From the NCBI GenBank assembly GCA_947184155.2, contig CAMXCT020002344.1, forward strand, positions 39,636-103,635: a stretch of DNA of 64,000 nt, read 5' to 3'. Source of the DNA: Cladocopium goreaui. Taxonomy: Eukaryota; Sar; Dinophyceae; Suessiales; Symbiodiniaceae. Under the pieces are notes generated by a model. That model did no database searches. It saw nothing but the letters and a program-made list of their open reading frames with translations, and was not told the origin of the DNA. Positions 1 to 64,000 of this stretch are shown here, piece by piece. Both the position numbers and the translations under genes were made by a program. The stretch's first letter is position 1. Every line of letters begins with the position of its first letter.

Positions 1-1419
1 GGGGCGGGCCCACTTATGGAAGTTGGGCTGCCTGCCTTGGAAACCATCAAGAATTCCTCGCAAGTGACCATGCCGGGGCCACTGCCCCGTTGCAGGCACT
101 GGGAACGTGACCAATCCTGACCACTGTCCCAATATGCTCCAAGCATGACACCAATCAGCTGCGCATCGAGTGGCCGTGCCTAGAAGTGGTGATCCTAGCA
201 ATCCACTAGAGACAGCAGTTTCAGTATCACAAGGCGGTTGGGTGGTCGACAGGTAACTCTCAACATGGTCACGGTAGGCACTGCTGGCAATAGCGGCCAG
301 TTCGTCAGGGTCACGATCAGGGTCCACCAGGTCCGCCACTGGTATTGGGCTGCAATGTCGAGATGCCAACACAATAACCAATCCAGCATTGATTTCCGTG
401 AAGGCTTCACTAACCAGAATGATGCCTTTGATGGTCACCGGCTTTGATGTTTCAGCGGCAGCTTGCTTGCCAGTCGATTCATGACACGACTGAGCCGTTG
501 GCGTGGAGTTGTGACTCCGTTCATCTTCCCCCTCTGTTGGGTGTGGACTCGATGGCTCTGATCCCCCGAAGTCAACCTCATCCTCGAAGTTTCCGGACTG
601 GGCAGGAGTTAGCGATCTACTAGCACTAGTCATCAGGTTCTCAACGCTTCGCGACTTGGGCAGCTTGATAGGAGGGCCCGGTTGTTGTTGCGTGGCTTGC
701 CCCGTATCAACTGATCTTGCTCTTTTCTGTGCAGGAGCAATTGGACTACTCGGGATGACTCCTGGTTGGCGGCTTTCCTCTGCAGGGGAGTCAGTCTCAG
801 CGCATGAAAGCCACAGCTCCTGAATCTCGAATAGTGTAACTGGCACACAGTCACTATCAATAAGAGCAAAGTTGATATCAGGGAAGAGGAAAACACACGC
901 ATCTAGAATATAGGTTCCTGCCCACGTCGGGTGCACCTTGGACAGACCAGTGTCCGCAGATATAGGCACAAATACAACTGTGGTACGTTCACCATATGGG
1001 CCTACATATCGTATACGCTCCTTCCACCATGCCGCAACCATAGGCCAATGACTAAGCCCTGCAGTGCTGGAGACAGTCGCTGCCACCAGATCTCGATTGT
1101 CAGTGATGAGGTAGACTGTTTGGAAGGCTAAAAATTCAGCAGCTTGGCTGATGATCCATCGATAAAGGCTGTGCCACACTGGTCCAGGAGTGACTTCCAC
1201 GCCATCCACAACTTTTATCTCACAGTCATGCCGATCAGGGTCTCCGGATTTCTTATGGGGGTCTCCAAATCGCCACTGTTGATGCACCGACTGATTCAGG
1301 CCGTACTCCGTCGAAATGTCTTTGTAGAGGCCTAAGGCTTGCAACAGGTCATCAAATTTCGCACGGGGATCAGCTTCGAACCAGTGGTGTTGCGCTTGCT
1401 GCCTTGTCAGGAGATCCAT
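1..1419 (-). CDS. X protein, unit 1, incomplete at the window edge
   Basis: This open frame starts at an ATG (1419-1417) and runs off the left edge without a stop, about 473 codons. It aligns along its whole length with the X copies at 38681-40510 and 61027-62867: a WRFGDPHKK segment near the N-terminus, HPTWAGTYILDACVF, then IDSDCVPVTLFEI, a variable Ser/Pro/Glu-rich middle, and ILVSEAFTEINAGLVIVLAS. The IDSDC stretch after a hydrophobic strand looks like the DxD metal-binding site of GT-A glycosyltransferases, but I see no other diagnostic motif. The leader holds four two-stem hairpins, the nearest 24 bases before the ATG, then a spliced-leader relic. By comparison with unit 2 about 135 codons are missing, followed by the helicase gene. 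Confidence 0.8.
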   Translation of the reverse strand, partial: MDLLTRQQAQHHWFEADPRAKFDDLLQALGLYKDISTEYGLNQSVHQQWRFGDPHKKSGDPDRHDCEIKVVDGVEVTPGPVWHSLYRWIISQAAEFLAFQTVYLITDNRDLVAATVSSTAGLSHWPMVAAWWKERIRYVGPYGERTTVVFVPISADTGLSKVHPTWAGTYILDACVFLFPDINFALIDSDCVPVTLFEIQELWLSCAETDSPAEESRQPGVIPSSPIAPAQKRARSVDTGQATQQQPGPPIKLPKSRSVENLMTSASRSLTPAQSGNFEDEVDFGGSEPSSPHPTEGEDERSHNSTPTAQSCHESTGKQAAAETSKPVTIKGIILVSEAFTEINAGLVIVLASRHCSPIPVADLVDPDRDPDELAAIASSAYRDHVESYLSTTQPPCDTETAVSSGLLGSPLLGTATRCAADWCHAWSILGQWSGLVTFPVPATGQWPRHGHLRGILDGFQGRQPNFHKWARP

Positions 1420-1442
1420 ACTAGGGCTAGGTGGCAAAGCCC

Positions 1443-2029
1443 CTGGTCCAGTCTACGGCCAGAGACAGTGCTGAACTGAGATTGATTGGGGCCAGCGAGG
1501 TGATACCCCTGACCAGTCTACGGCCAGAAATATCACACTGGATTCTTTGCGGGGGAAATGATATTTTATAATGATGAACCCGGATGGTAAATGCTGAGCC
1601 AAACAAACAAGCAAACAAGGGAAAATGAAGGAGAGGATGATGCTGGAAATCCTGGACCAGTCTACGGCCAGAAAGACCAGGCACCAAACCCGAGAGGACA
1701 AACAGCGCAAAGGGAAGAAAAGACAGACAGGAGGCAGAAGAGTAGAAGCAGCGAGCAAGGCGGGGGAAGTTGAAATCCCGGAGGCAAATAGACCGAAATG
1801 CTGAGCACCAACTCAAAAAGAGAAAGACCGAGGGGGAGCACAAATGGGCGAGAACGTCCAGAAAAGGCCAAGGCCAGAGGGGGAGATGACCACGAAAGGG
1901 GAGCCAGGAGGGCACGAAAGAGCAAGAGCAACCAACCAAAACAACGCCAAGCGAAACAAACAAACAAACCAAACAAACCAAAAAAAGGGGGGGTAAGGCA
2001 CTGACAGTCCTGAGCCAGTCTACGGCCAG
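1443..2029 (-). repeat. Four two-stem hairpins in the X1 leader
   Basis: Inner cores lie at 1443-1462, 1509-1527, 1652-1671 and 2010-2029, with the loop version GTCTACGG (plus strand). The third has an outer CTGG/CCAG stem. The second pairs CTGGCC with GGTCAG in gene sense, using one G-U pair. The other three carry a one-base bulge in the inner stem. The DNA between them is rich in AAAC and G runs and has no conserved ORF. Confidence 0.75.
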
Positions 2030-2225
2030 AAAAATCAGGTACCTATACTCCCAATAAAAGACAAGGAAGCGGAGAAAGAAGAAGGAAAGAGTGATACAGG
2101 CAAACAAGACACTCAATGCTAGCAGAGCAGCCCCACCTACGGATGAAGGAAACAAGACAATTGCCAGGATGCCGTGTCAAGGTGAGCACTGGTCCAGGGT
2201 AGCAGAATACACCTTTATTGTCTAA

Positions 2226-2246
2226 CTTGAGCCAGAGCGGTCAAAG
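2226..2246 (-). other. Degenerate spliced-leader relic upstream of X1
   Basis: The minus strand reads tctGGCTCAAG, matching the 3' end of the dinoflagellate spliced leader; bases further 5' are eroded. It lies upstream of all four X1 hairpins, the same order as in X2 and X3. Confidence 0.5.
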
Positions 2247-2665
2247 GCACACAGGCACAGTATTATAACCCGCCATCGGTCGAATCACTACGTGCATACA
2301 TGCGGGTTACATATTTCAGAAGGTGACTGTTGATGGGGTAGTCAACCATACCTAAGGTGGTCAGGGGACACCTTTTTCCGTGCAGTTTGCCTCATGAAAG
2401 CTCGGCTTCTGATGGGATATCATAATTTGAGCCTTGGTTCATTGATCCTATCCGAATTCCTCACAGCACACCTACCCTAGCCCACTCAAAGGTTGATACA
2501 AACACACCAGTTGTAAAAGCCAGTAAGGCACTGTTGGAAAAATTCAAAACGATAAAGAGACGAAGAAAGCTCAAACCTCACATGAGCAAGAAGTTGTGCA
2601 TCCGATGAAGGCCGGTGCTCACTCCTTTGTTACTCCGCGCTCTCCAGGTGTTATGGGAATTGGCT
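2234..2665. other. Spacer between the X1 leader and the Ank1 stop
   Basis: This is AT-balanced unique sequence with a second minus-strand GGCTCAA at 2427-2433 whose flank does not resemble the leader. No hairpin of the family and no conserved ORF are seen. It probably holds the 3' UTR of Ank1. Confidence 0.4.
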
Positions 2666-3775
2666 TTAGTCTAACTGATCCAGAAGTGTTCCTGGCTGGG
2701 CCAACCCACCAGGGCGACGAAGTTCTTCTCTGATTCGAACAGGTAGGTACAGGCCTTCCAGAACACGTCGCCATCGATGCGTCGTGTAGCACCCTCTCGT
2801 TATATGCGGCCTGGAACTGTAATACTTCTGGACTAGATTGCCTAGGAGGATCTTCGCGTGGTCTGTCATAGCAGTGTCATCACACATTGGGTGTTGAGTC
2901 CCATCTGCGCTTTGTTGGATTGGAGTCCTATTGGGGAGGAGATCAGCCAATGTATCCTCTTGACCTTGGACAAATGATATTTGTACCGCGTTAACAGATT
3001 CCTGGCGTGACAAGAAGCCAAACCAGTACCATGGATGGTCACATAGCGACACAATGGGTGTAGTCCTCCACGGGTCTGCCCTCGCCTCCAGTAGCAATTG
3101 CACATTTTTCCTGTGTCGGTGCAGAACGGCCGTCATCAAAGGTGGCACTGCGTCACCTTCGGGGTGTACCATTGCTTCTTCTTCTAGGAGTAACTGGACT
3201 AGATGTGAGTTACCGAGCTCAACTGCCAGTTCCAACATAGTAGTCGGCTGCTGCTTTGGCGGGATGATGTTGGGGTTAGCCAACGATTGCAAGAGCAAAT
3301 ACGTAAGGCTGACCCCAGGCCGAGGGAAGTACAAGTCCTTGGAAGCTTGAAATTTATATGCATCACTGTCGTTGTCTCGGAAGATTGCCAGTGTGAGCAG
3401 TGAGCTGGTGTGTCCACCATCTGGAACACACCACGTAAGGTCAATTCCTTGGCCTAAAAGGTACAAAAGGTCAATGACATCTTTTTCATATAACGCTGTC
3501 ATTAGCGTCTGGTAGTGCTCGGCGGTTGGGTATTGCAATTTTTGCACCAGATAGCATACCTCTAAGTCTCGAGGCGTCATCTGAGAACTGATGGTTCGCA
3601 CCGGAGAGAGCATCCCCGCCGTGCTGCTCAGGTAGAGAACAATCTGAAAGGGGGAGTCTAGGGCAAGCTTCCGAGCCATCTGTTCCATGAGGTCCCATCC
3701 GACTGTCACCCCAGCAACCACCTGTGTGGTCAGCTCTTCGTTGCCATTAATGCCATGGCGCACAACTACTCGCAT
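2666..3775 (-). CDS. Ubiquitin-like plus ankyrin-repeat protein (Ank1)
   Basis: 369 residues from an ATG (3775-3773). Residues 1 to about 78 have the pattern of a beta-grasp ubiquitin-like domain: a first strand MRVVVRHG, a helix around GWDLMEQMARKLAL, then FQIVLYL and a closing VCYLVQ strand. Ankyrin-type repeats follow at roughly 90-245, clearest at TMLELAVELGNSHLVQLLLE and PLMTAVLHRHRKNVQLLLEA. The C-terminal 120 residues are not recognised but include FRWRRILEGLYLPVRIR-like sequence conserved in Ank2. This architecture suggests a protein-binding adaptor; the partner is unknown. A spliced-leader relic lies 136 bases upstream, but I find no family hairpin in this leader, unlike Ank2. Confidence 0.82.
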   Translation of the reverse strand: MRVVVRHGINGNEELTTQVVAGVTVGWDLMEQMARKLALDSPFQIVLYLSSTAGMLSPVRTISSQMTPRDLEVCYLVQKLQYPTAEHYQTLMTALYEKDVIDLLYLLGQGIDLTWCVPDGGHTSSLLTLAIFRDNDSDAYKFQASKDLYFPRPGVSLTYLLLQSLANPNIIPPKQQPTTMLELAVELGNSHLVQLLLEEEAMVHPEGDAVPPLMTAVLHRHRKNVQLLLEARADPWRTTPIVSLCDHPWYWFGFLSRQESVNAVQISFVQGQEDTLADLLPNRTPIQQSADGTQHPMCDDTAMTDHAKILLGNLVQKYYSSRPHITRGCYTTHRWRRVLEGLYLPVRIREELRRPGGLAQPGTLLDQLD

Positions 3776-4186
3776 TGCTGTATATTTACTCTGATAACCA
3801 GATGGGAGGAAAGTAAATCTTCGGGGGCAAGCAAATCGGTAAGTTCTAAATTGATCCGATCACCTAAATCACACAGGATGCATAAAAACTGCTGCAGAAC
3901 AGTCAGTAATTTGAGCCCATGAAAATACACCGGAAGCTGCGAGAACCTAACGATAATTAGAGACAAGGGGGGGTATCAGCTAGGGTAAATCTTATGGGGA
4001 ACCAAAAGAAACCTCATTGCAGTATTAGCAGGCCAGTTCGCATTATTTACGTTTTACGACACCTTGCCGACTCCTAATGGCAAAACTCGATCAACAAAGC
4101 ACGCTTTATTTTGAGACACCGTCTGAAGGATGCATGTCAGCAGTCTTCGCTACGGTCATGTACATCCAAACAAAAATTGCTCATGT
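3776..4186. other. Ank1 leader and B1 3' region
   Basis: Non-coding. It contains the spliced-leader relic at 3910-3931. No family hairpin is seen. The remainder shows nothing conserved. Confidence 0.4.
3910..3931 (-). other. Degenerate spliced-leader relic upstream of Ank1
   Basis: The minus strand reads TATTTTCATGGGCTCAAA. GGCTCAA and a preceding ATTTT resemble the leader with an insertion between them. It lies about 136 bases before the Ank1 ATG. Confidence 0.45.
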
Positions 4187-5368
4187 TCACTGGTGGGAGT
4201 CCTGTTGCTGCTTCTCTTCTTGAGCAGCTTGGTTCTCATCTTGTGGATGCTCTTGCACAACCTCCTTGGTGGAGCTCGCACTACCTTCGACCACCACTTC
4301 TTTCTGGATTTGCTCCAGGTTCTCTACAACAGTTGCCATTTGGTTCACTGCCTCTTGAAACACGGTTAGCAAGGTTCTCGCATAGGCAATTTGAGGTTCT
4401 TTCCTGTCACCTCCGTCTGCCTTGGGTGCAAGTGGCGGCACTTGTCCACAAGTCCATTGCGCGGCTATTGCTGTTCCCTTCGCTTTCTCTGATGATGAGG
4501 ATACCTCCTTTTCTGGATTGGCAAAGGTGGCATTGAGAGTTTGCATGTCTCGGGCACTATACGTACCGGTGGCATCAAAAGGTCTGGCACCACCTTGCCC
4601 CATGGGGCCTGGGTGTTTGCGCTTCCCATAGGACATTACTCCTTTCTGTGCTGTCGGTCGCATATCATATTTATCTTCAAATCCTGTGGTAAAGGTTTCT
4701 TGGTCAGCCCACTCTATCCTTGTATTGTCGTTGAGGGCGATAAGACAATCCTTCTTTTTGCTGCCTTCTGAGCCCACTGCATAGGTGTGCCAGCACTTCG
4801 TTCTGTTGGCTAGAATATGATGCTCATGCATCTTGTTTGAGTAAAAGTGATTCAGCTTTTCATTATTCGGATGGTTGGAGATGATGGCGAAACGACGAGG
4901 ACTGACCCAGATCCACAAGTCTTCTTGAAAGGATTCCGTGGTGTAAAAGGGCCAAATAACACGGCCTCCCATTTCAACGAAGCTGAAGCTAGTGTATTCA
5001 TCATCACTGCTTTCAGAATCAATATGGCAGAAGTCGTGCGTAAGCTTAACAGAGCTAGAGCCCGGGAAACTGCCTGGAGGTTCCTTCATGTTCTCATCGA
5101 TTATAATGTTCCAGCACTCTGAATTGATGACCATCCGATACTCATAGAAAGCCCAGGTATAGACCTGCGGGCCAATATGCTGATAACTGCCTTGGTGATA
5201 GTACACCTTAATGCCATCATATTCTTGGACAAAGGTCTCTTTGTAGCCACAGTGGAGAGGTTCTGGGTTATTACCTGTAGTGGTGGCCTCAGTTGGCCCA
5301 TCTTTGTTCATTTGGCCAAGCTGTGGGCCTGCCTTCAAACTCCACTTGTCTCCGACCCATTGCGTCAT
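4187..5368 (-). CDS. B-family protein, unit 1 (RRFAI-domain)
   Basis: 393 residues from an ATG (5368-5366). The N-terminal half contains EYRMVINSECWNIII, then a core with a PFY segment, WIWVSPRRFAII and MHEHHILANR. The same core pattern (PF, W-x(2)-SRRFAI, MHAYN-LLGNR) occurs in the E proteins of the same unit, so B and E look like distant paralogues. The C-terminal third is low-complexity, with GKRKHPGP and a helical Glu/Gln-rich tail (about 330-393) likely to form a coiled coil. No known family is recognised. B2 is its counterpart in unit 2. The leader has one hairpin 276 bases upstream and a spliced-leader relic beyond it. Confidence 0.8.
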   Translation of the reverse strand: MTQWVGDKWSLKAGPQLGQMNKDGPTEATTTGNNPEPLHCGYKETFVQEYDGIKVYYHQGSYQHIGPQVYTWAFYEYRMVINSECWNIIIDENMKEPPGSFPGSSSVKLTHDFCHIDSESSDDEYTSFSFVEMGGRVIWPFYTTESFQEDLWIWVSPRRFAIISNHPNNEKLNHFYSNKMHEHHILANRTKCWHTYAVGSEGSKKKDCLIALNDNTRIEWADQETFTTGFEDKYDMRPTAQKGVMSYGKRKHPGPMGQGGARPFDATGTYSARDMQTLNATFANPEKEVSSSSEKAKGTAIAAQWTCGQVPPLAPKADGGDRKEPQIAYARTLLTVFQEAVNQMATVVENLEQIQKEVVVEGSASSTKEVVQEHPQDENQAAQEEKQQQDSHQ

Positions 5369-5643
5369 GGCGATACAGCTGATTGGCGCCGGCTACTTCC
5401 GTGTAGTGTTTGGGTTAGAAGGAAAGACGCAGAAACGAATGCCAGGCAGATCAGGGGGGACAGCAGGGCAAATTCTCACTGCAGAGGAGTTTGATACTGT
5501 CGAGCAAAACAGAAGGAGGAGGACAGAGACGTAAGCAAACGAAAAAAGGGGGAAGGGCAAAAGGCAGCAAGAACCAAAAAAAGAGGGGGGGAGGACAGGC
5601 AAAGAGGGGAAGAAGGAGGGGGGGGCAAGGCGAGGGTACACCC

Positions 5644-5913: not shown

Positions 5914-6309
5914 TTAGGAGAAAGAGCGAAAACATGCAAGCTCTGTATAACTTTGTTGGACAAGTACTCTAGCCACTCGAACCGTAGAGGAATCCGTGAT
6001 CGTTATGCCCTCCAGGCAGAGTTGGTCGAGCAAGTGATCGTCAATGTAGCTGATGTGCTCATCTGTGAGAGAACATTCGCACGGAGTGCGCTGTACCAAA
6101 CCATTGGAGAGCAGGATATATTCTTGATAACGTGCAACATCAAGTCCAATCGCTGCAAACGTTGCTGTGCTAGCTGTCCACACTTCAGCATCACGGGATC
6201 GCAGTATAAGTATTACCAGTTCAAGGTTGTGTCCAATAATACTCTCTGCTGGCCGTTCTTCAGCTGACACTGCCGCCAGCTCCCCATCAACCGCATCAAG
6301 GTGCTTCAT
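5914..6309 (-). CDS. C-family protein, unit 1
   Basis: 131 residues from an ATG (6309-6307). The unit 2 copy (45025-45420) has exactly the same length and shares MKHLD-VDG, an EERP segment, AxTAT-A, the stretch ILLSNGLVQRTPC and TDSSTV, with QSYTEL near the end. No family is recognised; the alternation of hydrophobic strands suggests a small alpha/beta domain. There is no signal peptide or membrane segment. One hairpin lies 265 bases upstream. The equal length and clear protein conservation with divergent DNA argue that it was kept by selection. Confidence 0.78.
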   Translation of the reverse strand: MKHLDAVDGELAAVSAEERPAESIIGHNLELVILILRSRDAEVWTASTATFAAIGLDVARYQEYILLSNGLVQRTPCECSLTDEHISYIDDHLLDQLCLEGITITDSSTVRVARVLVQQSYTELACFRSFS

Positions 6310-6912
6310 GTCTAGGAGTTAATCTAGCATCTCTAGTCAATATTGGCCAACCTTACATGTTAGTCGAATAGGCCGTTTTCCAGAGCCATGAATATGAAGG
6401 AACATGAGGGACCTAGCCAGAGGATCTTCTAGAAAAACACCTGCACACTAGCGATGCACAGCTTGAAACTACACAACAAGGGGAAAGTGGCTATAAGGGA
6501 AGGGGGCACTTTACATAACGCCTAGGAATGGTCACGATTCACGTATGGTCATCTACTACTTGACAGGTGCAATCCGACGCGTCTACGGTCAGAGAGACAC
6601 CGTGTCAGGTAGTTCCTAAGAATTTGAGTTCAGAAAGATATACAAGTTCAATTAATACACTAAATTCGTAGTGGAAACAACCATAACTTCATCATGGTGA
6701 AAGTGGGTCAATTTGCAGCAAGCGTGTCAACTTCATGGCTGCTGCGTTTTGACTCCAAACTGTTTGAGATGAAATGGCTGCAGGCTGACTCTGCATGCTT
6801 ACGTAGCAAGAGACTAGGGCGGTGTAATATACCCTGCTGTCGCGAGTAGCCAGCACTGTTGACATCCTAGGTTGTGTAATCTGGATTGCCACACTCACCT
6901 TCTGCTCATTTT
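6310..6912. other. C1 leader and D1 3' region
   Basis: Contains the family hairpin at 6574-6592 and no clear spliced-leader relic. The minus-strand frame at 6692-6916 has no counterpart downstream of D2, so it is not called as a gene. Confidence 0.4.
6574..6592 (-). repeat. Two-stem hairpin in the C1 leader
   Basis: In gene sense the inner stem is CTGAC/GTCGG with one U-G pair, and the outer stem is GGTG/CACC. Flanking bases are shared with the E1 and F1 hairpins (aggtgcaa before and caccgtg after, plus strand). Confidence 0.78.
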
Positions 6913-7734
6913 TCACAGTAAGACTACCCTTGGAGACAACAGCTCACTGGTGGAGTCACTTACCACTGCAGTGGGTGGATCCTGCATAAGGATCTGAATA
7001 CGCACGTGCGGTTGGAGTTCTCTGACGATGTCTCTGAGCAGGGTACTTTGGGCCACCGAAACAACCGCAGTGTCGACTCCGTCAGAGACTTCCGTCCATG
7101 TCCTGATGTTCCAAGGTCTGTTAACTCGCAGTAATACAAAGGTCAATTCAACCAGAGATGAGACGGGCGCAGCAAGCGCCTCTGTATCCATGTACCCTCC
7201 CAAATTGGCTGTGATGAGTACTGTCCTGACCACAATTCGAAACGGATGAGCATCAAGAGGGACAGGGTATCTGCCTGAACCATCAGTTAGGGAATTTGAA
7301 CCTGCGGGAATTAAAAAAAGCCGGTTAATCCAGACTCCTCTATCTGCCGGGCTACAGAAAGTTGCCAATCGTACAATGTCATGATGTGTCTCTGCCATCG
7401 CTATAAGAAGCTGATGGGTGATAAATTGACTCGTGCGTTCCACTTGCATGAGGTCTCTGTCAAGTGTACTGTACAGCCACTGCAACCCAGACGTCTCATC
7501 CGGGAATAATATGACAAGACCACTCTGCAGAAGTTTGACTGTACGACGCAGGTCTCTTAATGTATTGGTCAATTCCTGGGCAGCTTCCAGGCCATGCATA
7601 AGCATTCTGACCGACGATGGCACTTGATGACGATCATGTCTGAACCGCGCATGGGCCATGAGGCTTGCAGCTAAGGTTATACTGTAATGTTTCACTGCAT
7701 GTGTCAAGGGGCAGGAGGTAGGAGGAGTAATCAT
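6913..7734 (-). CDS. D-family protein, unit 1
   Basis: 273 residues from an ATG (7734-7732). An in-frame ATG 25 codons later aligns with the start of D2 and is an alternative start. Conserved with D2: MHGLEAAQEL, TLRDLRRTVKLLQSGLVILFPDE, ITHQLLIAMAETHHDIVRLA, RGVWINRLFLIPAG, PVPLDAHPFRIVVRTV and the C-terminus ending VVLL just before the stop. Helical N-terminal half, strand-rich C-terminal half. No known family is recognised; there is no membrane segment or catalytic motif. Neither a family hairpin nor a spliced-leader relic is obvious in its leader, although D2 has a hairpin. Confidence 0.78.
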   Translation of the reverse strand: MITPPTSCPLTHAVKHYSITLAASLMAHARFRHDRHQVPSSVRMLMHGLEAAQELTNTLRDLRRTVKLLQSGLVILFPDETSGLQWLYSTLDRDLMQVERTSQFITHQLLIAMAETHHDIVRLATFCSPADRGVWINRLFLIPAGSNSLTDGSGRYPVPLDAHPFRIVVRTVLITANLGGYMDTEALAAPVSSLVELTFVLLRVNRPWNIRTWTEVSDGVDTAVVSVAQSTLLRDIVRELQPHVRIQILMQDPPTAVVSDSTSELLSPRVVLL

Positions 7735-8089: not shown

Positions 8090-8893
8090 TTACCCCGCAA
8101 ATAGCGCCGCATAGGCTTCACTGAGCATCTGCCAGCTCTGCTGTACCTGATAACTGGCTCTGTTTGCTTCATGGATCGCGTCATTGTGCTGCTTCTGCAA
8201 GAGGATGGTCCTTTCACGGAGGTGGAATATTCTTTCTTCCTCACTGGCATTGTTGGGGAATTTCCCCGCAATTGCATCACGGCAGGTTTGGGATTGTCGA
8301 AAATCAAAACTTGAACGGTCATCCTCGTGAATCGCTCGGTTAATTCTTGTGCGATCTGTGAGAGCAATTCCATCTGCCTGGGGGGCATATACCTCAATGC
8401 GATTACCCAACAAATTGTAAGCGTGCATAACTTCTGCTATGATAGTGCATTGTTGGGCACTTCGCGCTACAATGGCAAAGCGGCGTGAGTTCGCCCAACA
8501 AGCATAACCATAGTGTCGGATCTCTGCCGCGAAGGGATAAAAGCCTTTGCCAGCCACCTCCACCCACTCCTGAAGATACTCCTCATCTGTGTCATGGGTG
8601 ATAATCTTATGGAAACCATGAGGTAGGCGTTCTCGTAAGAGTACATTTTCGTCCGGTGGGAGCCAAGTCTCATCATCTGCCCACAAAATGTTCCACTTCT
8701 CCATTTGGATCCATACCCATGCTTCCAACAGGTTGAAGGGAACGCACCCTATTTCAATGTTTCTGCAATGTCGATGCATTGGAAAATTCCCTCGGTGTAA
8801 GCACATCATAGTGTTGGAGTTATTGACAATAGGATCGACTGTGTAGCCTTTCCAATGGTAATTCTCCAGGAACGTAATCGACGGCGATGCCAT
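8090..8893 (-). CDS. E-family protein, unit 1 (RRFAI-domain)
   Basis: 267 residues. I choose the ATG at 8893 because it aligns with the E2 start (TFL-NYHWKGY follows in both); the frame is open 12 codons further up, without an ATG. Conserved: WNILWADDE-WLP, LPHGFHK, FYPFAAE, ACWANSRRFAIVA, MHAYNLLGNR, and a helical tail with LxxxHND. The PF...W-x(2)-RRFAI...MH...L-NR core is shared with the B proteins. No known family is recognised. The strong core conservation between units, against free drift at both ends, suggests a folded binding or enzymatic domain; function unknown. A hairpin lies 161 bases upstream. Confidence 0.82.
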   Translation of the reverse strand: MASPSITFLENYHWKGYTVDPIVNNSNTMMCLHRGNFPMHRHCRNIEIGCVPFNLLEAWVWIQMEKWNILWADDETWLPPDENVLLRERLPHGFHKIITHDTDEEYLQEWVEVAGKGFYPFAAEIRHYGYACWANSRRFAIVARSAQQCTIIAEVMHAYNLLGNRIEVYAPQADGIALTDRTRINRAIHEDDRSSFDFRQSQTCRDAIAGKFPNNASEEERIFHLRERTILLQKQHNDAIHEANRASYQVQQSWQMLSEAYAALFAG

Positions 8894-9533
8894 GGCTAGG
8901 GCAGAGCTTGACGATGTAGAGTGATGCACCCTTGTCGTGTCTCCTTTCCAGAAGAGATGTCGGGAAATTCACTTGCTCAAATGTCAAGTTGTCAGGCATT
9001 GGTATCGGCTGTGATGTGCTTGCTTAACAGTCTTAGACCCCGACAGGTGCAACCCGACACGTCTACGGTCAGAGGAGCACCGTGTACAGGTAGTTGTGTT
9101 GCATCTAATAACTCAAGAAGCCTTAGTTGGTAGTGGTCACCAGACGTATGAGTAGTACACAATTACAAGGATACAACAGACTTGAAAGGTTTCAGGATTG
9201 TAAGCTAGCTGCGAATAACACCAGCCATACCTTTCAGAGCACAACCTGCACGTTTAGTGACTGCAATTCTTCTTATGGTGCTGAGAGCCACAGAAAGACA
9301 CGATAGTTACACTCAATTGGTGGAAATACATAAAAATAAGGTACAACACACCAGATAATTGGTCGGATCACATGAATGATGTATAGTGGGAAATCAACAG
9401 ATACAACCCGATAGTTCCAAGGTTAATCCCGTTTCCGACTGGTCTACGTAATCCATAAAAGACACTAGTTTGCCAAACGCGCGCTCACTTTCCTGCTGCA
9501 GCAGTCACTGGTATAAAAGTGTCCTATATACTG
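8894..9533. other. E1 leader and F1 3' region
   Basis: Non-coding apart from the hairpin at 9054-9072. No GGCTCAA relic is seen. Confidence 0.35.
9054..9072 (-). repeat. Two-stem hairpin in the E1 leader
   Basis: Inner stem CTGAC/GTCGG in gene sense (one U-G), outer GGTGC/GCACC, loop version GTCTACGG. Nearly the same element as at C1. Confidence 0.8.
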
Positions 9534-20807: not shown

Positions 20808-20828
20808 CCACGGGCCTTTCGATAGTAG

Positions 20829-42681: not shown

Positions 42682-42703
42682 ACTTGCCCCGTAAGATGAA
42701 GCG

Positions 42704-47983: not shown

Positions 47984-48005
47984 GGCTTCGCAAGTGGCGC
48001 GCTTA

Positions 48006-54500: not shown

Positions 54501-54783
54501 TGCCAACTCGTGCATCTTTCCCTTACCTTTGCTCTTTCCACCTTTCGGCTGGGGCTTCTTCTGCTGCTTTCCCTTGTCACCTTTGGGCTTGTCAGGACAT
54601 TGTGCCCCAATGTGACCAAACTTCGAGCAATGAAAACACTTCACCTTGCTCAGATCGGCCTTGCATTGCTTGGCCATGTGGCCTCGCCTCCCACACAGAT
54701 GACACTTCATCGTGCTCTTGGGACTTCCCTTTCCTTTGGCAACAGTAGCACTGATCCAAACCTGTGCATCTTCGTCCCATTCC
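54500..54783 (-). pseudogene. Gag-like fragment with two CCHC zinc knuckles
   Basis: Two perfect knuckles, CHLCGRRGHMAKQC and CFHCSKFGHIGAQC, then a Lys/Gly-rich stretch, typical of LTR-retrotransposon gag. It is cut at one end by the poly(A) of unit 3 and fused at the other, in frame, to RT2. RT1 has nothing like it at this position, so it is not a native part of the RT gene. Confidence 0.8.
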
Positions 54784-57385
54784 TTTTTTTTTTCCTCCGA
54801 TTTGGCCGATTCGCACTAGGCACGGTCCTTACAATTGCGTAAGCGGTGAAAAGCAGTAATGTATAGGACACGTGTGGTCCAAAAACTCTGGCAAATCATC
54901 ACGAGGAACAAACCAAACAAAACAAAAACGCAACCAAAAACGACCCGCAAATCCCCCAGCCAGATTTGCGTTTCGCCACAAAGCAAAACAGCGAAGCAAC
55001 AAAGAACGGGGCAGGGCCCAACAAAAACCAAAACAAAAACTTGAGATTTGCCTTGGATACAGTGACCTAAGCCACTGTACCATCCTCAAAAACATGCAAA
55101 CTAATTAATTGCGGCAGTGCGTGGAGTATAGTACACGATCGTCCAGACTGTCTTACCTGAGAAAAGAGAAGAGAATCCAGTATTGCAGGCAGACTGATGT
55201 GTAGCACGACAGAGGCCGCCTGTATGGACGTCTTGTTAATAGCAACTTCGCATCGCTGCTGTTCACCCTGTATCGTTCAGCGTATGCACGGCAGTCTGTT
55301 CCTGTCAATATGCACCACCGCAAGGGATTGTAATCTATTTCCCCCCCTAGGTGGGGAGGAGAGCACTTGACAGCCTGCAAAATGGTGTGAGCACTCGCAG
55401 GAACCGTCAGAGCGCAATGGGCCCAAGACCCTAAGACCATGGGTAAAAAGGTGGCTATAGGCCTGACCGGCACAATACGGCCATGACAGACAGATGGAGC
55501 TTCCGACCATAGCATGGGCTCGTGAGCACTTCCAGTATGATACTGCCGCTATGTATGCAAAAGTCGCATTCGCATTGCTGTCAAACTCGTTCCCCTAAAC
55601 TATGAAGGTTGAAGTGGTTCACTGCGTCAGCACTAGGTTCTCAAACAGGAGTCACTAGGCGTCATCGTCCCAGCAAGTCCTGCGGAGAGGACCAGATGCA
55701 CCGTATGTTAGCTGTGTATTCCAGACCAGGCCACTCTCTCCCACCGAGTGGGCCATTGCCAGGGCATTACAGAATATCCGCACAACGAACCATGTGGGCA
55801 GGCTTTGCTGCACTCGGGCGCTCCAGACTGAACTGCAGGAAGCACAACTGGACAGCGCCAGTAGAGCTCACTGCAGTGCAGCCTAGTCCATGGCTCTACC
55901 GGGAATCTACCGCCCCTCTCGGAAAAAACGCAGAAACAAAACAGAGCGAGAAGGGCCCTTCCCAACACAGCCAAAGAAAGAGCCACAAGACTCAAACAAA
56001 CCAAACACAAACGAATTTAAAGGGGAAACAAGGAGAGGGGGGGACGGTGAAGAAACTGCCCCACCTCGGACAAATCCTTAGTCACTACCAGATGAGACTA
56101 ATGTAGCTATGGTGAAACGAAGAGCTATGATGCAGAGCGGTAACCTCGGTATCCAGGCAACAGATGGAGCAAACAACAAAAAGCCAACCAACAGAAACCT
56201 GCCATCATGGGGGGAAGCACAAAGGGGGGAGCGGCCAAAGCACAACACACACAACACCACAAGCCACACAGAAGAAGCGAGGAGAGGAGCCAGGAGGCAG
56301 CAGAGGACAGAGAGAGAAAGGACACACACGCACTAGAAGGGGTACGAACGTGCCTTAGCGGAGTCCAAAAAGGGGCCAAGGATCATACAATGATGAATAC
56401 CTCAGTGAGGGAGCACACAGCCCCCAACAACACAGGAAGCATGGTGTAGAGGGAAAGATCCCCACACAGGGCCAAAGGCCTTTGTTGCCATGAGACATAA
56501 TGAGGAGGGGAGACAATGCGCAACAAACACTCCACGCACAGAGGCAAGGCATCCACGCACAGAGGCAAGGCAACCAGGCCGTCGCCGGAAGCAACGATAC
56601 CCAGAGGGAGGGACCAGTAAAACCTGGGCCAAGGCGCCAAAGAGGACCATCCGAGGGGGAGGGAGGGCCACGTCAGGCAGGGAACAGGCAACAAAAACAG
56701 AACCAAATAACAAGGCACCAACACCTAATGTAGCTCTGCTAAGGGCAAAACCTAGGGATTAGTCAACGAATTCAGATATCTTAACTAGTGGGAAGGGTGG
56801 GAAAGTGGGTGTCTCGTCAAGACTAAGTCTGGGGATAATAACAACAGTTTCATTACCCATCGATGATTGTCAGGCAAAGGCTGCGAGAGCGTGCGCTCGT
56901 GCAATAGGCTTCATGGTGGAGGCGACCTTAATATAATCTAAGCTCTCGACTGGACAACACATTCTAAACACTAGTGCAAAGAGAAAGCATGCTGCCCGAT
57001 CTGTTATGCCTAAGCTGGCACTCACACACAACTACAAATGCGGCTACCAACTGTTGGAGAGATCTGAATAGGTAGGGGCCAGGCATGTATAGCATAATGA
57101 ACCTAACAATTATAAATGAGGAAGAGCTGTGTCCCCTACTGCATACCAGTGCACCTGTCACGTCTTTGGACAGACACACCGGTATGGACAGTAACCTTAA
57201 GTAGAGATGACGAAGGGACCAAGCAGAGATTTAGGTCAACTCCCACCACCATTGTTGATGAAACGAAGGCCAAATACTGTGTGAGGGACAATGGGGAGTG
57301 AAACCGAAATGAGACAAAAGAGGAAGGGGGAGAAGGGGTGGACACAGAAAGGGTATAAGTGGTGCGAGCAGGGGTGAGCTGGGGA
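54784..57385 (-). other. 3' UTR and poly(A) of unit 3
   Basis: Close copy of 29280-31886 with small indels, including a local duplication of cacgcacagaggcaaggcat near 56536-56570. Carries the hairpin at 57143-57185. No conserved ORF. Confidence 0.7.
57143..57185 (-). repeat. Two-stem hairpin downstream of ML, unit 3
   Basis: Same as 31645-31687: inner CTGTC/GACAG, outer ATACC/GGTAT. Confidence 0.85.
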
Positions 57386-58213
57386 TCATGTCATACCTCT
57401 CGTGAAATGTTCCAAATAATGCTTTTTATCCGATGTGATAGTGTCGTTCCATTCGTTGCTGAGTCCAAACGAAACTGGGTTCACTCCTTGCTGAGCAATA
57501 GCACGCTGATGAAGCGCTCGGATCGCCCTTTGATGTTCGTCCAGATCTTCCGGAGGGACTCTCCTGCGGACTTTCCTGTCCGGGAAGTTTCGTTCCCGCA
57601 GGTTGGTTTGCAAGGCATGTCCCGCTACATAAACTGCAGGTTGCTGGAATAAAACACGCTCTGCAAATCTGTGGAGATGCACTGTCCACTCAGCAAACAT
57701 ATGGCTGTGTGACAGTTGATTCCTGAGTCGCGCTTCCGTTTGATGAAGGCTTCCATTGGTATGCCACAATCGCAAAAGACTGTAGTTGGAAGGCCAATCA
57801 AGTGGGCACAGTGTGGCTGTTTCTTTCCACTTTTCAGGTGTAAGCCCTGCTTGAGAGGGTATGATCACTTCCAGAGTAGTGCGATTCGGTCCCAGTGGTT
57901 GGAGACCTCGCATCATGTATGGTTCAACGAGCCCTGTGGTATATCCATGGATGAGCTCCTGGAAACATCCAGCCATTTGAAAGTCTTCATCCAATCCAAG
58001 GCGAAAACCAGGCATGTTTTTGGCAGCAAATTTAACTGCCTGGAGCAGCTGCTTTGCTCCCTCCACTGAAGTCTCGTCACAGGAACGTTTCGGGCACGTG
58101 ATGTTAATTTCTTGTGGTTTCTGCGCATTCTCAGGAGCATTCTCGAGAAGTTTGGGAGCAATTTTGCTGGCCCAGCTAGCCGGGAACCATGCCAGTAGGG
58201 TAGAGGCACCACT
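57386..58213 (-). pseudogene. ML protein, unit 3, N-terminus deleted, no intron
   Basis: Carries the C-terminal 270 or so residues of ML (from LLAWFPASWASKIAPKLLENAPENAQKPQEINI). It is continuous through the point where unit 2 has the 1054-base insert, showing the uninterrupted state. The front two thirds of ML, together with the helicase 3' end, were removed by one deletion at 58211-58214. A chance ATG in helicase sequence (58231) opens the remaining frame. Confidence 0.82.
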
Positions 58214-61058
58214 CCGGATCTTGGCTCGCATCAGGCCAAAGCTGAGCTACAAGGGCTGCCATTCGTGCCGGCGGAAGATAGTCTCCTGGCTTCTCAAGCG
58301 CTCGGAGCCCTAACGGCCGTTGCAACAATTTGCGTCGATTGACAGCCGCTGCTCGGCCTTTGGACAGCCCTCCTGGAGTTTGCCTGTGATCTCCAATGAA
58401 GACAGTAAGGGTTGGTTGTCGAATGGCAGCGAGAGCTGCAATCTCATGGTAATTGCCATACTGTTGACTTTCGTCCATGAAAGCAAGCCAGGTGCGAGAG
58501 ATCCAATGGCCAAAAGTGGAATAGCGCATCGCCATTTCCGCCGTAGCTGAGCCACCTGTTGCAATGAGTACATTCTTGTAAGCGATGATTCTATTACGGT
58601 CACTGCATCGGACGTCAATTTTGGAGGCATATGCGTCTCCTTTACCTTCCTCCATGCGACCAATTAGCCTACCGAAGCTCCTGATTGTGGGGGGCGCGAG
58701 GTCACTTAATTGATCCGCAAGTGCTTTGGCAGCTACATTTTCTTTCGTGTAGATGATCGCAACAAAGTCCTTGAGTTCGCAGCTCAGGGCAATGAGCAAG
58801 ACCGCAAGGGACCGTGTTTTGCCAGCACCAAAGACCCCTGCAATACATAAGTCAGATCTTCCTGTCAGAATGGCCAGCAACAGTGCAATTGAGACTGTCA
58901 AGACATGTCCATCACCGTGGGCTGCTAGAGGAAGTAGATGCTCACGGTAATAACTGTCATGGGCCCCATCCATCAAGATCGTGGCTGGTGTCAAAAACCG
59001 GCTCAAGATTCTGACTAATGCATCAGTCAGCTGCGTTTTGCGCTCGCTGGCCATACGGCGAACAGGTATATGCGGCTGCACGATGCCCATTGCCAATGGT
59101 AGGCGCGACTGGTCAGCTTGTGCAAACACTAAGAGTTCATGGCGGCTGCATGTGTCTCCCAGAAAGGCTAGCTCCTCCCACACTACGGCCATGGACACGT
59201 GGTCTTCGATGGGTTTCGGCCAGTCCTGTGCAGGATCAAAGTAACTCATTGTTTTGAGATACTGGTCCAAAAGTCGCCCACAAAAGGTCCGAGCAATGGG
59301 TAGCGAGACGATAACAAGCTCCAGCAACTTAGGGGCAATGCGCTTGAGCGCTCGCTGAGCAGGGTTCTTGCTGGTTCCGCTAGGCATCACCTTTTCATGT
59401 ACCAGTAATATGACACACCGCTGCTGAGTGTCTGGCAACTGGAGTACTCCCAGTAGTGCTCTGCCCGCCATCACGTTGGCTTCCAAGTTGCCTAGATTCC
59501 CAGCTTCACAGAGAGCACGCGGCGAGGTCGTTGGAACTTCCGAAGGTGCACTAAAGAGCAGGAGCGGGGCACCGTCAGTATGTAGGTGAATGACATGAAA
59601 GCCAGCATACGCCTCATATTGGTAGGTAACCTGTAACCGTGTTCCCGTTTGTCCTCGCTTGTTCTGCTGAGCTAGTTCTACACTAACCCAGGGCTGGAGA
59701 TGTTGGAGCTGCCGTCCCGCATGATAAGCGTCTAGTTGCGGAAGCACCATGTCCAGTAGGAAGATGAGGGTACGTAATGAAAAACCACGCAGGAATTCCG
59801 CCAGTAAGTTGCGAACCAGCAACCCTCCCTCATCGTGGGATCCTCCTGGTGTGGGAATCATCGCAATCAGAGCTGCTTGTAGTTCAGCTTCCGTATCAGG
59901 CTGACCATCCCGAATGTCCCGGCCGACAATGGGTACTGTTTGTAGCTCAGTGTTCCCCTCTCCAGCTGCTACTAACAGAGTGCTTAGAGTCGTCTTGAGG
60001 TGCACAGGAACGTCAAAGCTAACCCATGAAAGTACACGAGCAATCCCTCGCACCGTACTCCATGTGGAATGACTTGAGGGGTGGTGATTTGCAATCTTTG
60101 GATTTCATGGACTCCTTCATCAAGGTCAATGAAGAGCAAGTGGCCATAGGAGTGTTTAGCACGCCCACTCCATGTGGGGTGCCCTTCTATAAGAACAACC
60201 TGATAATTGAATTCTGTCAGAGAGTCAGGTTTCCACACACATAGCCGGTCCTCCAGACAATGCACCAGTGTGACTCTGTGACTCTGCGTTCGCCAGTGGC
60301 AAGTCGCATCATCTCTGGCGGCGTCGCAATCGCAACTTTGGTGAGGCCAGGGAACGCAGCGAATTCACTCAGGATCTCGTGGACTGCAAGGCCCGTTTAG
60401 GACCCTGCCGAGAACCCATAAACGTTGATGTCCCTGACACCTCCTATATCCGCTGTAGTGACTAAGTGTGGAAAACATGACTTCAGAAATAGATGTTTAC
60501 CTTGCGGATGGTAGCAACGAAAGATCTGCATAACTGCTGTTGACCAGGTCGGGTGTGGTGGCCTGGCATGGGCTGGCCGGATATTCGCGGCCTCAATGAG
60601 GCGAATCGCTCTCGTGAGCAGCAGTTGTTGATCGGAGAACTGTTCAGGGAGGAAATCTCGCCAGGCTGTCCATCCTTCTGCAGTGGAGAGTAGCTGGTAT
60701 ACCGCATATTCATGCACTGTTTTGGTGAGGCCCAATTGGGTGACATGTGCTTCCCAATCATCTGTCATCAAGTAGGCCACCCCCTAATCCACTGCAATGC
60801 ACTTCAAGGGGTCGGTCTTGCATTGGGGCGTCATCTTGCCAGACTTCTGAGAGGGAAAGGACCCAGGAGGCCCACTCGGCAGAGCCTTTGAGCGCTACGG
60901 GCAGCGCAGCTTCAGGTTGTCTTCCAATGTAGTTTTGTTTGGACACTTCTCCAACATCTATGGCCTGCTCATTGACAGTGACTTCCCATTTAGCCATCTC
61001 TCTGAAAGGTAACGGAAGACCAAACTTTAGGAGAGCTGCTTGCTGCAGCGATGTACAT
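58212..61058 (-). pseudogene. Helicase, unit 3, decayed
   Basis: Homologous to 34863-38708 but broken: a 4-base insertion right after the start codon (61052-61055), a deletion of about 75 bases near 60771, TAC to TAA at 60399-60397 just after GFSAGS, an 8-base duplication near 60270-60285, a one-base loss near 60045, and loss of everything past LWPDASQDPE. The helicase core with GVFGAGKT, MDESQQ and GDHRQTPGG is still open (60053-58212). Confidence 0.85.
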
Positions 61059-62867
61059 GAGGGTTCCGATTGTTCCTTCCGTTGCCACAGTCCACACAGC
61101 AAGATTAGTTGAGCTTGGGAGAGAGGAGGAGGAGGCACTTTGGCATGCAGTCGAAGACCAACCACTGGAAGGAAATTGTGATGCAGCCATTGGGGCTTCC
61201 ATTCTTGTGTACCAAATAAAGCCGCAGCCAGCGGCAACCAGCCGAATTGGGCGAGGTCAGCGAGACTGCTAGGCCCTAGGCATTCTTTTCTTGGCATTGG
61301 TGCCAAACCCATGCAGAATAACAGGCCGCATGTAATGTGGCTCGATTGCCATGGCTTGGTACATCTTGTCTCCTGGTAGCACTCGTACACTGACCTCACC
61401 TGGCAGCAGGCTAAGGGTCGGAAGGGCACCTTGCTCGTAGGCAGGCCGAGCCCATTTATGGAAGTTCGGTTGTCTGCCTTGGTAGCCATCAAGGATCCTC
61501 CGTAAATGACCATGGCGCGGCCAGACTCCAGAGGCTGGGACCGGAAAAGTGACTAATCCAGACCACTGGCCTAACAAACTCCACGCATGGCACCAATCTG
61601 CAGTAACACGGGTGGACGTGCCAAGCAGAGGAGAGCCAAGTAATCCACTAGCGACTGCTTGCTCAACGTCTGCAGGTGGATATGTAGTAGCAAGGTAGGC
61701 TTCGACATGTCTATGGTAAGCACTGGTAATAACGTGGGCTATTTCATCAGGATCCGTATCCGAGTCCTCCAAGGCAGTGACAGGTACAGGACTCTCATGA
61801 CCCGAAGCTAATACAATGACCAGACCCGCATTGATTTCAGTGAATGCCTCACTCACAAGGATGACTTCTTTGGGCCTACGCGCAGTGGCAGTTTCATCCA
61901 CGGCTGCTTTGTCCTTCCGGGTAGGTTTGGTTGACCCAGCCGGGGAGGAGTCATCGCTGCTGGACGTTGCCCGACGAGACATGCGGGGACTCGGGTCTGG
62001 CGAATCACCATAGTCAACTTCGTCTGCCAAATTGGCACCGTAGGTGAACGGAGGGGCTCGTAGTGGATCAGCTGTTCGGACAGCAATATGGTCCGCACTA
62101 TGCGATCTGGATAGCTTCGATGGTGGACCAGGCTGCTGCATGTCCCTTCCCGTGTCCACAGAGCGCGCACGTTTGTGCGATGACGCCATGGGGCTTGACA
62201 GTTTGCTCTTTGCAGCTTTGCTTGATGTAGCTGGGCGGGTTGGGTCAGTGCTCGCTAGCCAAAGTTCTCGTATCTCAAAGAGGGTCACTGGCACACAATC
62301 GCTGTCGATCAGTGCAAAATTGATGGTCGGAAAGAGGAACACACAAGCATCAAGGATGTACGTCCCTGCCCATGTCGGGTGTACTTTATGAAGACCAGTG
62401 TCAGCTGAAATGTGGACAAAGACAACTGTGGTGAGTTCTCCATATGGACCGACATAGCGTAACCGTTCTTTCCACCAAGCAGCGACCATTGGCCAATGGC
62501 TAAGTCCAGGCACAGACTTGACCTCGTCCGATTGCAAATCACGATTGTCCGTCACCAAATATACCGTATGGTAAGGCAAGAAAGCAGAGCTTTGACTAAC
62601 CAACCATCGGTACAACTTGTGCCAGTCAGGTCCAGGTAAGGTTTCGCTCCCGTTGACCATTGCAATTTCGTAGTCATGGCGATCAGGTGCAGCTGTCTTC
62701 TTATGGGGGTCTCCAAATCGCCAGTGCTGTTCAATTGATACATTCAGCCCGTACTCAGTCGAAATGCTCTTGTGCTGTTCAAGTGCGTAGAGCAAGTCAA
62801 AGAAGCTGATGTTAGGGTTCTTCGCGTACCAGGACTTCACAACTTGTTCCCTGGAAAGCAGAGACAT
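61027..62867 (-). pseudogene. X protein, unit 3, frameshifted
   Basis: ATG at 62867, then 532 residues nearly identical to X2, ending prematurely because of a 7-base insertion (aggccct) at about 61271-61277. Past it the X frame resumes (SSLADLAQFGWLPLAAALFG) and, because of the 4-base insertion near the helicase start, runs on into the helicase frame. The four leader hairpins and the leader relic are preserved. Confidence 0.85.
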
Positions 62868-62933
62868 CACACTGTGCAGTTCCTGTGTAGCAGATTTGGG
62901 TGTAAAAGTTATTAAGGGGGAGGGTGGGAGGTG

Positions 62934-63469
62934 TTGAGAATCCTGACACGTCTTTGGTCAGAAGACTCAAGCACTCCAGTCAGTCTCGAAAGTCGAAATC
63001 AACCAAAAAAGGGAAAACCAAAGCAAGACCAACAAAACAAACAACAACCAGAAAAGGCCAAAAGCAACACAAACCAAAGAAACAAGGGGGGGAGGGGGCA
63101 AGTGTTGAAAAACCTGACACGTCTTTGGCCAGGCAGTTCAAGCACCTTAATAGGAGACAAGTGGAATCGAAAATCACCCAACACTCAAGAAATTAAGGTA
63201 CGACAGCACAGCAGAGGCGGCGCACAAGGCAGTGAGGGAGCAAAGTGAAATCAGGGGGGAAGGAACGGACAAGAGAGGCTGGAAGCCCTGACAGTCTTTA
63301 GTCAGAGAATCCAGGCACGAGAGTGAAAAGGAGAAAGAGAGGGAAAGGGAGGGAGCAGACCGCAAGGACGAGCCAAAGAACAAAAGAGGAGAGGAGAGAG
63401 CAAAAGAAAGAGAGGGGTGGTGGAGAGAGGCGCTGGTAGCCCTGGCACGTCTTTGGCCAGAAAAACCAG
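62934..63469 (-). repeat. Four two-stem hairpins in the X3 leader
   Basis: 62934-62970 (TTGAG/CTCAA), 63105-63141 (TTGAA/TTCAA, inner G-U in gene sense), 63279-63314 (CTGGA/TCCAG), 63433-63469 (CTGGT/ACCAG). Same order and outer stems as X2, while the spacers between them differ more. Confidence 0.92.
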
Positions 63470-63723
63470 AAACCAAATGGAAAGGAGAGAAAGGAGTCAG
63501 GCGAAAGGAGATAACGCAATGAGGGGCACTATCGTGGAATAAGGTCCCAATGCACGAAAGAGCAAGGTGTAATCTGTTGTATGACAAAACAAGCCTGTAG
63601 TAATACCCTTTGCCCAATCACCGGAAAGGTTTGTTATATCGATCCCTCACCGAGGTAAGGAGGCACTATATATTTCCCTTTTCTGGAAATAAGCTGAGGC
63701 AGCAGGTCTGTCTACTGCCGTAC

Positions 63724-63743
63724 TTTGAGCCGATAGGATCGCA
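63724..63743 (-). other. Degenerate spliced-leader relic upstream of X3
   Basis: The minus strand reads CTATCGGCTCAAA; the same position as the X2 relic. Confidence 0.5.
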
Positions 63744-63928
63744 GGGAGCGGTAGCTACATGTAACAGAGCACACGATACTTGTGTAGTTAAGGACATCAT
63801 GGTTGAAATGAAAGATGTGACTAATGTGTACTGCTCTTTCGTTTTTCCTAGGGTCACAAGCAGGCCAGAATTCAGCCTTTACCTGGTGCCAGCCTCTCAC
63901 TGGGAAAGTGTTCATCTGGAGCACACAA

Positions 63929-64000
63929 TTAGTCAACTTGGTGCAGGAATGTTTCTTCCCGGTTGAGCTCCGGGGGTGATTGCAGCTCATTTCGTATTCG
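63929..64000 (-). CDS. Ankyrin protein, unit 3, last 23 residues
   Basis: The minus strand at the right edge encodes RIRNELQSPPELNREETFL and HQVD before TAA, identical to the end of Ank2. The rest of the gene lies outside the window. Confidence 0.85.
   Translation of the reverse strand, partial: RIRNELQSPPELNREETFLHQVD

Follow-up and report, generated by a model that had tools for sequence, protein, structure and literature searches.

A spliced-leader-ended and poly(A)-tailed LINE-like retroelement of about 34 kb in the dinoflagellate Cladocopium goreaui

Long interspersed nuclear elements (LINEs) usually measure about 4–8 kb. In dinoflagellates, SymbioLINE-Dnmt is described, in the available sections of its report (de Mendoza et al. 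2018, PMC5890265), as a LINE with many copies, conserved 5′ and 3′ untranslated regions (UTRs) and target-site duplications (TSDs), in which a DNA methyltransferase (DNMT) open reading frame (ORF) lies upstream of an ORF for endonuclease (EN), reverse transcriptase (RT) and RNase H; it is reported there without poly(A). Terminons, giant Penelope-like elements of rotifers, reach up to 40 kb and form head-to-tail arrays with an RT and extra ORFs, and are characterised in the available part of their description (PMC6431247) as EN-less, attached to telomeric repeats and equipped with hammerhead ribozymes. Retrocopies of host mRNAs tagged with the spliced leader (SL) have also been described in dinoflagellates (available parts of PMC6050394 and PMC12014239). 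Here, we analysed 64,000 nucleotides of Cladocopium goreaui DNA (hereafter the window; positions 39636–103635 of contig CAMXCT020002344.1, or C2344, whose end coincides with that of the window, in an assembly of 1,165,616,438 bases and 6202 contigs), which contains three units of a retroelement whose genes all lie on the minus strand. We consider these units very probably to be a giant, SL-capped, polycistronic and autonomous LINE of ~34 kb that is related to SymbioLINE-Dnmt.

Like SymbioLINE-Dnmt, as far as the published sections describe it, the units place a DNMT-bearing ORF ahead of the one for EN and RT and have TSDs, conserved UTRs and many copies, but ~20 kb of further genes and 3′ UTR lie behind the RT, and the words helicase and ankyrin are absent from the main text of the SymbioLINE-Dnmt paper. 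They share with LINEs in general an APE-type endonuclease and RT, poly(A), a TSD of variable length and 5′ truncation, and depart from them in being ~34 kb long with ten or more genes, where the usual LINE has one or two ORFs. Terminons, judged from the available description, are the nearest giant retroelements, being alike in the RT with additional ORFs and in head-to-tail copies, but with another RT type, endonuclease and target, since the units have an EN-RT, interior TSD-flanked sites and no Rfam match at gathering scores. SL-tagged retrogenes likewise start with a spliced-leader relic; those described are single host mRNAs, whereas the RNA copied here has many genes, including the RT. A sequence-only reading of the window had called such an element undescribed, which needs qualification, as its DNMT and EN-RT core resembles the published SymbioLINE-Dnmt; its size and extra genes were without a published counterpart in the literature covered, which excludes most subscription papers and all preprints and yielded no LINE of this size and nothing closer than SymbioLINE-Dnmt. 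The available part of PMC11453091 makes no mention of giant LINEs.

The units and the landmarks of unit 1 are as follows (window coordinates unless a contig is named).

1–27355, minus strand: window part of unit 1 (family B), which extends left to C2344:30801
27336–27355, minus strand: 5′ end of unit 1, resembling the dinoflagellate spliced leader (DinoSL), CCGTAACCCTTTGGCTCAAG
27356–27376, no strand: right copy of the 21-nt TSD of unit 1, AGTCTTTACGAGGCCATACAA, a perfect repeat directly outside the SL relic
26124–27049, minus strand: 5′ UTR of unit 1, with nine copies of an RNA hairpin
29280–54501, minus strand: unit 2 (family A), 5′-truncated in the RT, with a 3′ T11 run at 29280–29290
54784–64000, minus strand: 3′ part of unit 3 (family A), which leaves the contig at its end, with a 3′ T10 run at 54784–54793

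Unit 1 has a total length of 36,190 bp between perfect TSDs, or 34,266 bp after subtracting an insertion flanked by terminal inverted repeats (TIRs) at 23482–25405. Left of the window (C2344:1–39640, fetched as pieces L009–L012), the minus strand carries the remainder of gene X and a helicase polyprotein, reaching 34161, beyond which the 3′ UTR of unit 1 is followed by a T9 run at C2344:30801; the left copy of the TSD adjoins this run (L012:780–800, 21/21 match). The SL relic lies at an edit distance of 3 from the sequence that we take to be DinoSL, and 20 shuffles each came no closer than 5 or 6. When the flanks of unit 1 are joined, the sequence of RT3, another LINE on the plus strand, stays open across the insertion point in one frame of three and runs into an LRWAVNEDDD stretch that is also found in the RT of unit 1. 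Unit 1 is inserted in the coding sequence of this other LINE. A single element of ~36 kb whose 5′ end bears an SL relic had been proposed from the letters of the window, and both proposals hold; the accompanying forecast for the leftward extension also came true for the rest of X, the helicase, the 3′ UTR, the poly(T) and the plus-strand 5′ part of RT3; no match to an ‘ML’ domain was seen.

From X to the RT, units 1 and 2 are colinear (offsets 38,752–39,162), with ~71–77% nucleotide identity in the alignable stretches of a self-comparison. Units 2 and 3 match from their 3′ end to the contig end, which falls in the last part of the ankyrin gene, in three long blocks (88.8, 93.7 and 90.7% nucleotide identity) plus 120 nt at 97.5%, and the two T runs are their homologous 3′ ends. 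Unit 2 stops within the RT at ~54501; copies on contigs C324 and C5639 go on upstream into the endonuclease. On C779, a relative of RT3 runs uninterrupted, in an open frame, past the point that matches the 3′ junction of unit 2. The sequence-only reading had thus correctly recognised the minus-strand gene order common to units 1 and 2, the part common to units 2 and 3 from the ankyrin gene to the 3′ UTR, the two poly(A) ends (29280 and 54784) and the truncation of unit 2, and its count of three copies stands with the restriction that unit 1 alone is demonstrably complete, unit 2 being truncated and unit 3 running off the contig.

The search for other units and their TSDs, which that reading had suggested, yielded two more complete ones. 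On C5639, unit B (33,732 bp, 19-nt TSD) has its SL-like end at 171329 and its poly(A) at 205060, and is nested inside another unit, A, which it interrupts; the SL-like end of B is at an edit distance of 2 from DinoSL (best of each shuffle, 5–6). On C870, a unit of 36,018 bp (15230–51247) has a 13-nt TSD, a poly(A) end and a 5′ end that is SL-like as judged by eye, and a helicase probe match lies within it. The TSDs of the three complete units measure 21, 19 and 13 nt, and poly(A) is 9–11 nt long at seven 3′ ends. Between unit 1 and C5639 B, the outermost 100 nt are 97.9% identical at the 5′ end (94 of 96 aligned) and 86.7% at the 3′ end (78 of 90). The SL-like ends of the three complete units differ mutually by small internal changes; SL relics at element ends are a mark of a dinoflagellate source. 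In the same genome, the helicase probe gave 768 first-look candidates, 40 of which were scored, at 95–100%, and a 5′-end probe gave 642, 40 of which were scored with 67 matches, many corresponding to the terminal 270–290 nt at 89–92%; the 768 and 642 candidates are lower bounds on copies and not numbers of complete units. Tandem template jumping, considered for the head-to-tail units, was rejected on C5639, where the abutting unit is a nested insertion with a TSD; it may account for units 2 and 3, where the contig ends.

The genes of the unit, all on the minus strand, are listed here in the order of the sense RNA.

25410–26132, minus strand: ORF1, N-terminal part (unit 1)
20832–23219, minus strand: ORF1, middle part, sharing its frame with the DNMT part, with one stop codon separating them
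18888–20828, minus strand: ORF1, C-terminal part, DNMT-like, with SMFDGVGS, GSPCQDLT and ENAG stretches
17243–19024, minus strand: g03, overlapping the adjoining ORFs; in RT3, in the same ORF as the DNMT and after it
12994–17268, minus strand: EN-RT ORF, with RVT_1 and with Exo_endo_phos slightly under its cut-off
11140–12838, minus strand: RNase H-like continuation (g05, g06), labelled by eye, no Pfam match
8093–8968, minus strand: gene Y of unit 1, a multicopy orphan
47177–48064, minus strand: gene Y of unit 2
6916–7734, minus strand: g09 (unit 1)
5917–6318, minus strand: g10 (unit 1)
4190–5392, minus strand: g11 (unit 1)
2669–3859, minus strand: ankyrin-repeat gene of unit 1, with Pfam ankyrin repeats above cut-off
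41566–42768, minus strand: ankyrin-repeat gene of unit 2
1–1452, minus strand: X, the N-terminal part of the helicase polyprotein, in unit 1; the rest lies on L012 to C2344:34161
34866–40624, minus strand: X and helicase polyprotein of unit 2, here in two overlapping frames

Each unit has ~10–13 ORFs, according to the way in which broken frames are divided, in place of the ~15 genes first counted. X, the helicase and the following domain, initially taken for separate genes, form one polyprotein, as in the homologue P0001 (1973 aa). Endonuclease and RT sit in one ORF, as in LINEs (12991–17262; RVT_1 at E 1.9e-11, Exo_endo_phos at 8e-05 with 22.9 bits vs a cut-off of 24.5), which also matches the R2 structure at 6.9e-07; RVT_1 and the ankyrin repeats are the Pfam families that score above cut-off. 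Behind the RT, a candidate RNase H motif was picked out by eye in g05/g06, and the C-terminus of RT3 scores 0.085 for this domain. The C-terminal part of ORF1 appears DNMT-like from weak scores (Pfam DNA_methylase E 0.077, below cut-off; PDB DNMT3B E 0.9) together with stretches common to four aligned copies, which we presume to be DNMT motifs. The polyprotein scores 0.0003 for AAA_19 and 0.00037 for AAA_30, carries the helicase motifs GAGKT, DESQQ, GDHRQ and VALTRA, by eye those of superfamily 1 (SF1), and has a GFSAGS...D...H pattern, conserved to at least 90% across 21 aligned sequences, that may be read as an alpha/beta-hydrolase triad. Y, g03, g09, g10 and g11 had no meaningful match to a Pfam family, nor had Y in a PDB profile search (lowest E 0.41); the predicted structure of Y, with a mean pLDDT of 46.6, was not used. 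Relatives of the helicase with just 26–30% identity (P0017, P0018, P0020–P0026), several of them on contigs longer than 100 kb, were also seen, and there are probably giant units of more distant families as well.

Comparing unit 1 with C5639 B, all 13 gene segments combine a pS of 0.69–0.85 with a pN of 0.17–0.41 (EN-RT, 0.83 and 0.19): synonymous sites are saturated, the proteins are conserved, and all 13 are under purifying selection between the two families. Gene order is identical in families A and B.

A second feature common to the units is an RNA hairpin of 37 nt on the sense strand, formed by an outer 5-bp stem, a 3×3 internal loop, an inner 6-bp stem and a 9-nt loop near CAWAGACGY. Besides the nine copies in the 5′ UTR of unit 1 (seven in C5639 B), the following lie in the window.

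31648–31684, minus strand: 3′ UTR hairpin of unit 2 (counterpart in unit 3 at 57146–57182)
40579–41101, minus strand: four hairpins upstream of X in unit 2
42704, 44749, 46520, 48009 and 49000, minus strand: further hairpins of unit 2
1500, 1643, 2001, 5635, 6566, 9046 and 9988, minus strand: further hairpins of unit 1

Across 23 copies of the hairpin core (20 distinct), the inner stem pairs in 100% of 120 cells, vs 90.2% after shuffling. The longer hairpin (17 copies, 16 distinct) is paired in 94.9% of 176 cells, vs 75.0% shuffled and at most 51.0% when slid, with changes on both sides in 37 cells vs 12.7 shuffled; each of these two values was reached in 0 of 500 shuffles, many of the aligned rows being paralogues in one unit or its copies and hence not fully independent. 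Two other statistics were weaker, the number of pairs with double changes being reached in 156 of 500 shuffles and that of pair types in 3 of 500. A search of 142,640 bases with the longer model gave 58 matches at E ≤ 5; all 53 of those at E < 1e-3, 17 of them training rows, are on the sense strand of a unit, and the opposite strand gave two weak matches (E 0.37 and 3.4). The longer model found nothing in L009–L011, where the shorter one matched weakly at two places in L009 (E 0.028 and 0.2). A plain search for the loop also returned sense-strand loops without a stem, one at 16246 and one at C5639 192997.

In one family or both, hairpins lie upstream of ORF1, g07, Y, g09, g10, g11, the ankyrin gene and X, as well as in the 5′ and 3′ UTRs; there is none ahead of g03 or EN-RT, where ORFs overlap, and at E < 1e-3 none before g09 and the ankyrin gene in unit 1 or g10 in unit 2. 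The first ATG downstream of the hairpin is the assigned ORF start in 8 of 12 cases examined, and the 12 leaders contain 9 ATGs vs 26 expected from the strand average, an expectation that is lowered by several of them being pyrimidine-rich. This pattern favours a role of the hairpin in setting the 5′ end of each cistron, and we give about an even chance to the view that the hairpin ahead of many internal ORFs helps to define cistron 5′ ends, through trans-splicing or internal initiation; ribonucleoprotein assembly is the main alternative role. A ribozyme at the 5′ end of the unit was rejected, as no Rfam family matched at gathering scores and the one match was at chance level (E 4), and the folding energy of the terminal 140 nt was not unusual (z 0.40 and 0.37).

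That the unit is a single retroelement is shown by its ends and TSDs, by empty sites and by the conserved order of its genes; its autonomy and its copying by its own RT we infer. A sense RNA of ~34 kb would be 5′-capped with the dinoflagellate spliced leader and end in a short poly(A) tail, both of which are read here from the ends of DNA copies. The EN-RT would then nick the target and copy the whole RNA starting at the poly(A) end, which would leave the observed pattern of 13–21-nt TSDs and often 5′-truncated copies. Because selection keeps them, the DNMT-like ORF1, the orphans Y and g09–g11, the ankyrin protein and the hydrolase-helicase polyprotein would be functional components of the element; the SF1-like helicase probably assists the RT on a structured template of such length, and the hairpin would help to mark the 5′ end of each cistron by guiding trans-splicing or internal initiation.

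Among the alternatives, the one that survives best, although unlikely, is that the 34-kb RNA is copied in trans by the RT of another LINE, which would make the units giant retrocopies without autonomy. The SL-tagged retrocopies of host mRNAs in dinoflagellates (available parts of PMC6050394 and PMC12014239) offer a precedent, but strong purifying selection on the unit’s own EN-RT (pN 0.19, pS 0.83) and a full gene set common to two families speak against it. We rate slightly lower the idea that read-through past the 3′ end of an ordinary-sized LINE of SymbioLINE-Dnmt type once added a block of genes that it now carries as passengers: the DNMT and EN-RT core fits the shorter architecture in the published sections of PMC5890265 and recurs in the more divergent RT3, whose 3′ end lies outside the visible sequence, yet Y, g09, g10, g11, the ankyrin gene and X are under purifying selection between two anciently split families, and one type of hairpin runs through the 5′ UTR, the internal gaps and the 3′ UTR. 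It is improbable that the units are an endogenised large virus, either a DNA virus or a giant RNA virus; the number of genes, the helicase-hydrolase polyprotein and the structured RNA repeats are virus-like, whereas the EN-RT and the insertion hallmarks are those of a LINE, no capsid gene was recognised (with no usable structure models of the orphans), and three IMG/VR scans, one protein each, gave no viral relatives. One scan of GTDB was likewise without relatives. Segmental or tandem duplication of clustered host genes, with a LINE among them by chance, would suit the three head-to-tail copies on one contig and the nested copies on C5639 and is very improbable, being contradicted by the perfect TSDs, by poly(A), SL-like ends and differing flanks at three dispersed loci, by hundreds of first-look candidates and by the rejoining RT3 frame.

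Other observations weigh against the interpretation as a giant autonomous LINE related to SymbioLINE-Dnmt. The units carry poly(A), for which reason we class them as a relative and not as a member of SymbioLINE-Dnmt as published (available sections of PMC5890265). Just 3 of the 12 copies inspected are demonstrably complete (unit 1, C5639 B and the C870 unit): the C1164 copy is 5′-truncated and a TSD was looked for and not found, the C324 copy is truncated within ORF1, and those on C113, C978, C779 and C710 had no SL end at the predicted 5′ positions where they were probed. For unit 2, a TSD was also looked for and not found, and its end abuts a foreign zf-CCHC fragment. Two of the complete units have extra bases between the TSD and the SL-like end (TTTC at C5639:171325–171328, T9 at C870:15220–15228). 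Several ORFs of these copies contain stops or frameshifts, and the Exo_endo_phos, helicase and DNMT scores are all under curated Pfam cut-offs. Family counts in a large protein collection, as summed member sequences, drop from 3′ to 5′ as 5′ truncation predicts (helicase, 1630 in 26 hits; Y, 1343 in 47; ORF1 N-terminus, 310 in 43), which favours the interpretation, but the gradient also hinges on protein length, divergence, gene prediction and the scoring, for the helicase, of the best 7996 candidates with most words in common.

Going further, the units may represent a virus-scale LINE lineage with one polycistronic SL-capped RNA of ~34 kb, at least ten selected genes and cistrons expressed via a dedicated covarying hairpin, which we propose tentatively and at somewhat less than an even chance. 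If true, it would exceed every LINE described in the literature searched and be the first of them to have an internal signal of its own for gene expression; the upper size of endonuclease-bearing LINEs would rise several-fold, and a TSD-making retroelement would be seen with a virus-sized gene set, with a bearing on RT processivity, polycistronic RNA expression in dinoflagellates, and the gain and retention of genes by retroelements. The repeated hairpin would be a concrete RNA signal open to testing. Repeat pipelines may break such units into unrelated genes, so some annotated dinoflagellate orphan genes may belong to them.

The remaining features are RT3 and sequences inserted in or between the units.

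27377–29279, plus strand: 3′ part of RT3, in which unit 1 makes one break and the 3′ junction of unit 2 another
C2344:24756–25697, plus strand: DNMT of the 5′ part of RT3
C2344:25638–26063, plus strand: g03 of RT3
C2344:27305–30692, plus strand: EN-RT of RT3
23482–25405: TIR-flanked insertion of ~1.9 kb within ORF1 of unit 1, TIR CCTAAAGGGGGGGGGCCCTGCAGGGTAGCCCCCC

RT3, the target of unit 1, is a third, more divergent DNMT and EN-RT LINE with 35–51% amino acid identity; DNMT and g03 are in one ORF, and its visible parts had no match to the longer hairpin model. A zf-CCHC (gag-like) coding fragment (54502–54783) separates the broken end of unit 2 from the 3′ end of unit 3; it is on the same strand as the RT and open in frame with it, possibly a template switch or a target remnant. 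A 1.05-kb sequence inside unit 2 (32597–33650), missing from unit 3, occurs three times within the C324 unit (64348–65000, 66773–67825 and 76928–77983; 96.6–97.7% identity); no obvious terminal inverted repeat was seen where looked for. It is a mobile sequence in its own right, with these units as its insertion sites. The ratio of observed to expected CpG is 0.56–0.64 in the units and 0.55–0.75 in five other fetched stretches, with no clear contrast, and 0.26 in the TIR-flanked insertion. This insertion, with its long terminal inverted repeats and an interior rich in 11-nt repeats of the TTTGACCTTAT type, looks like a non-autonomous DNA transposon that arrived later than unit 1.

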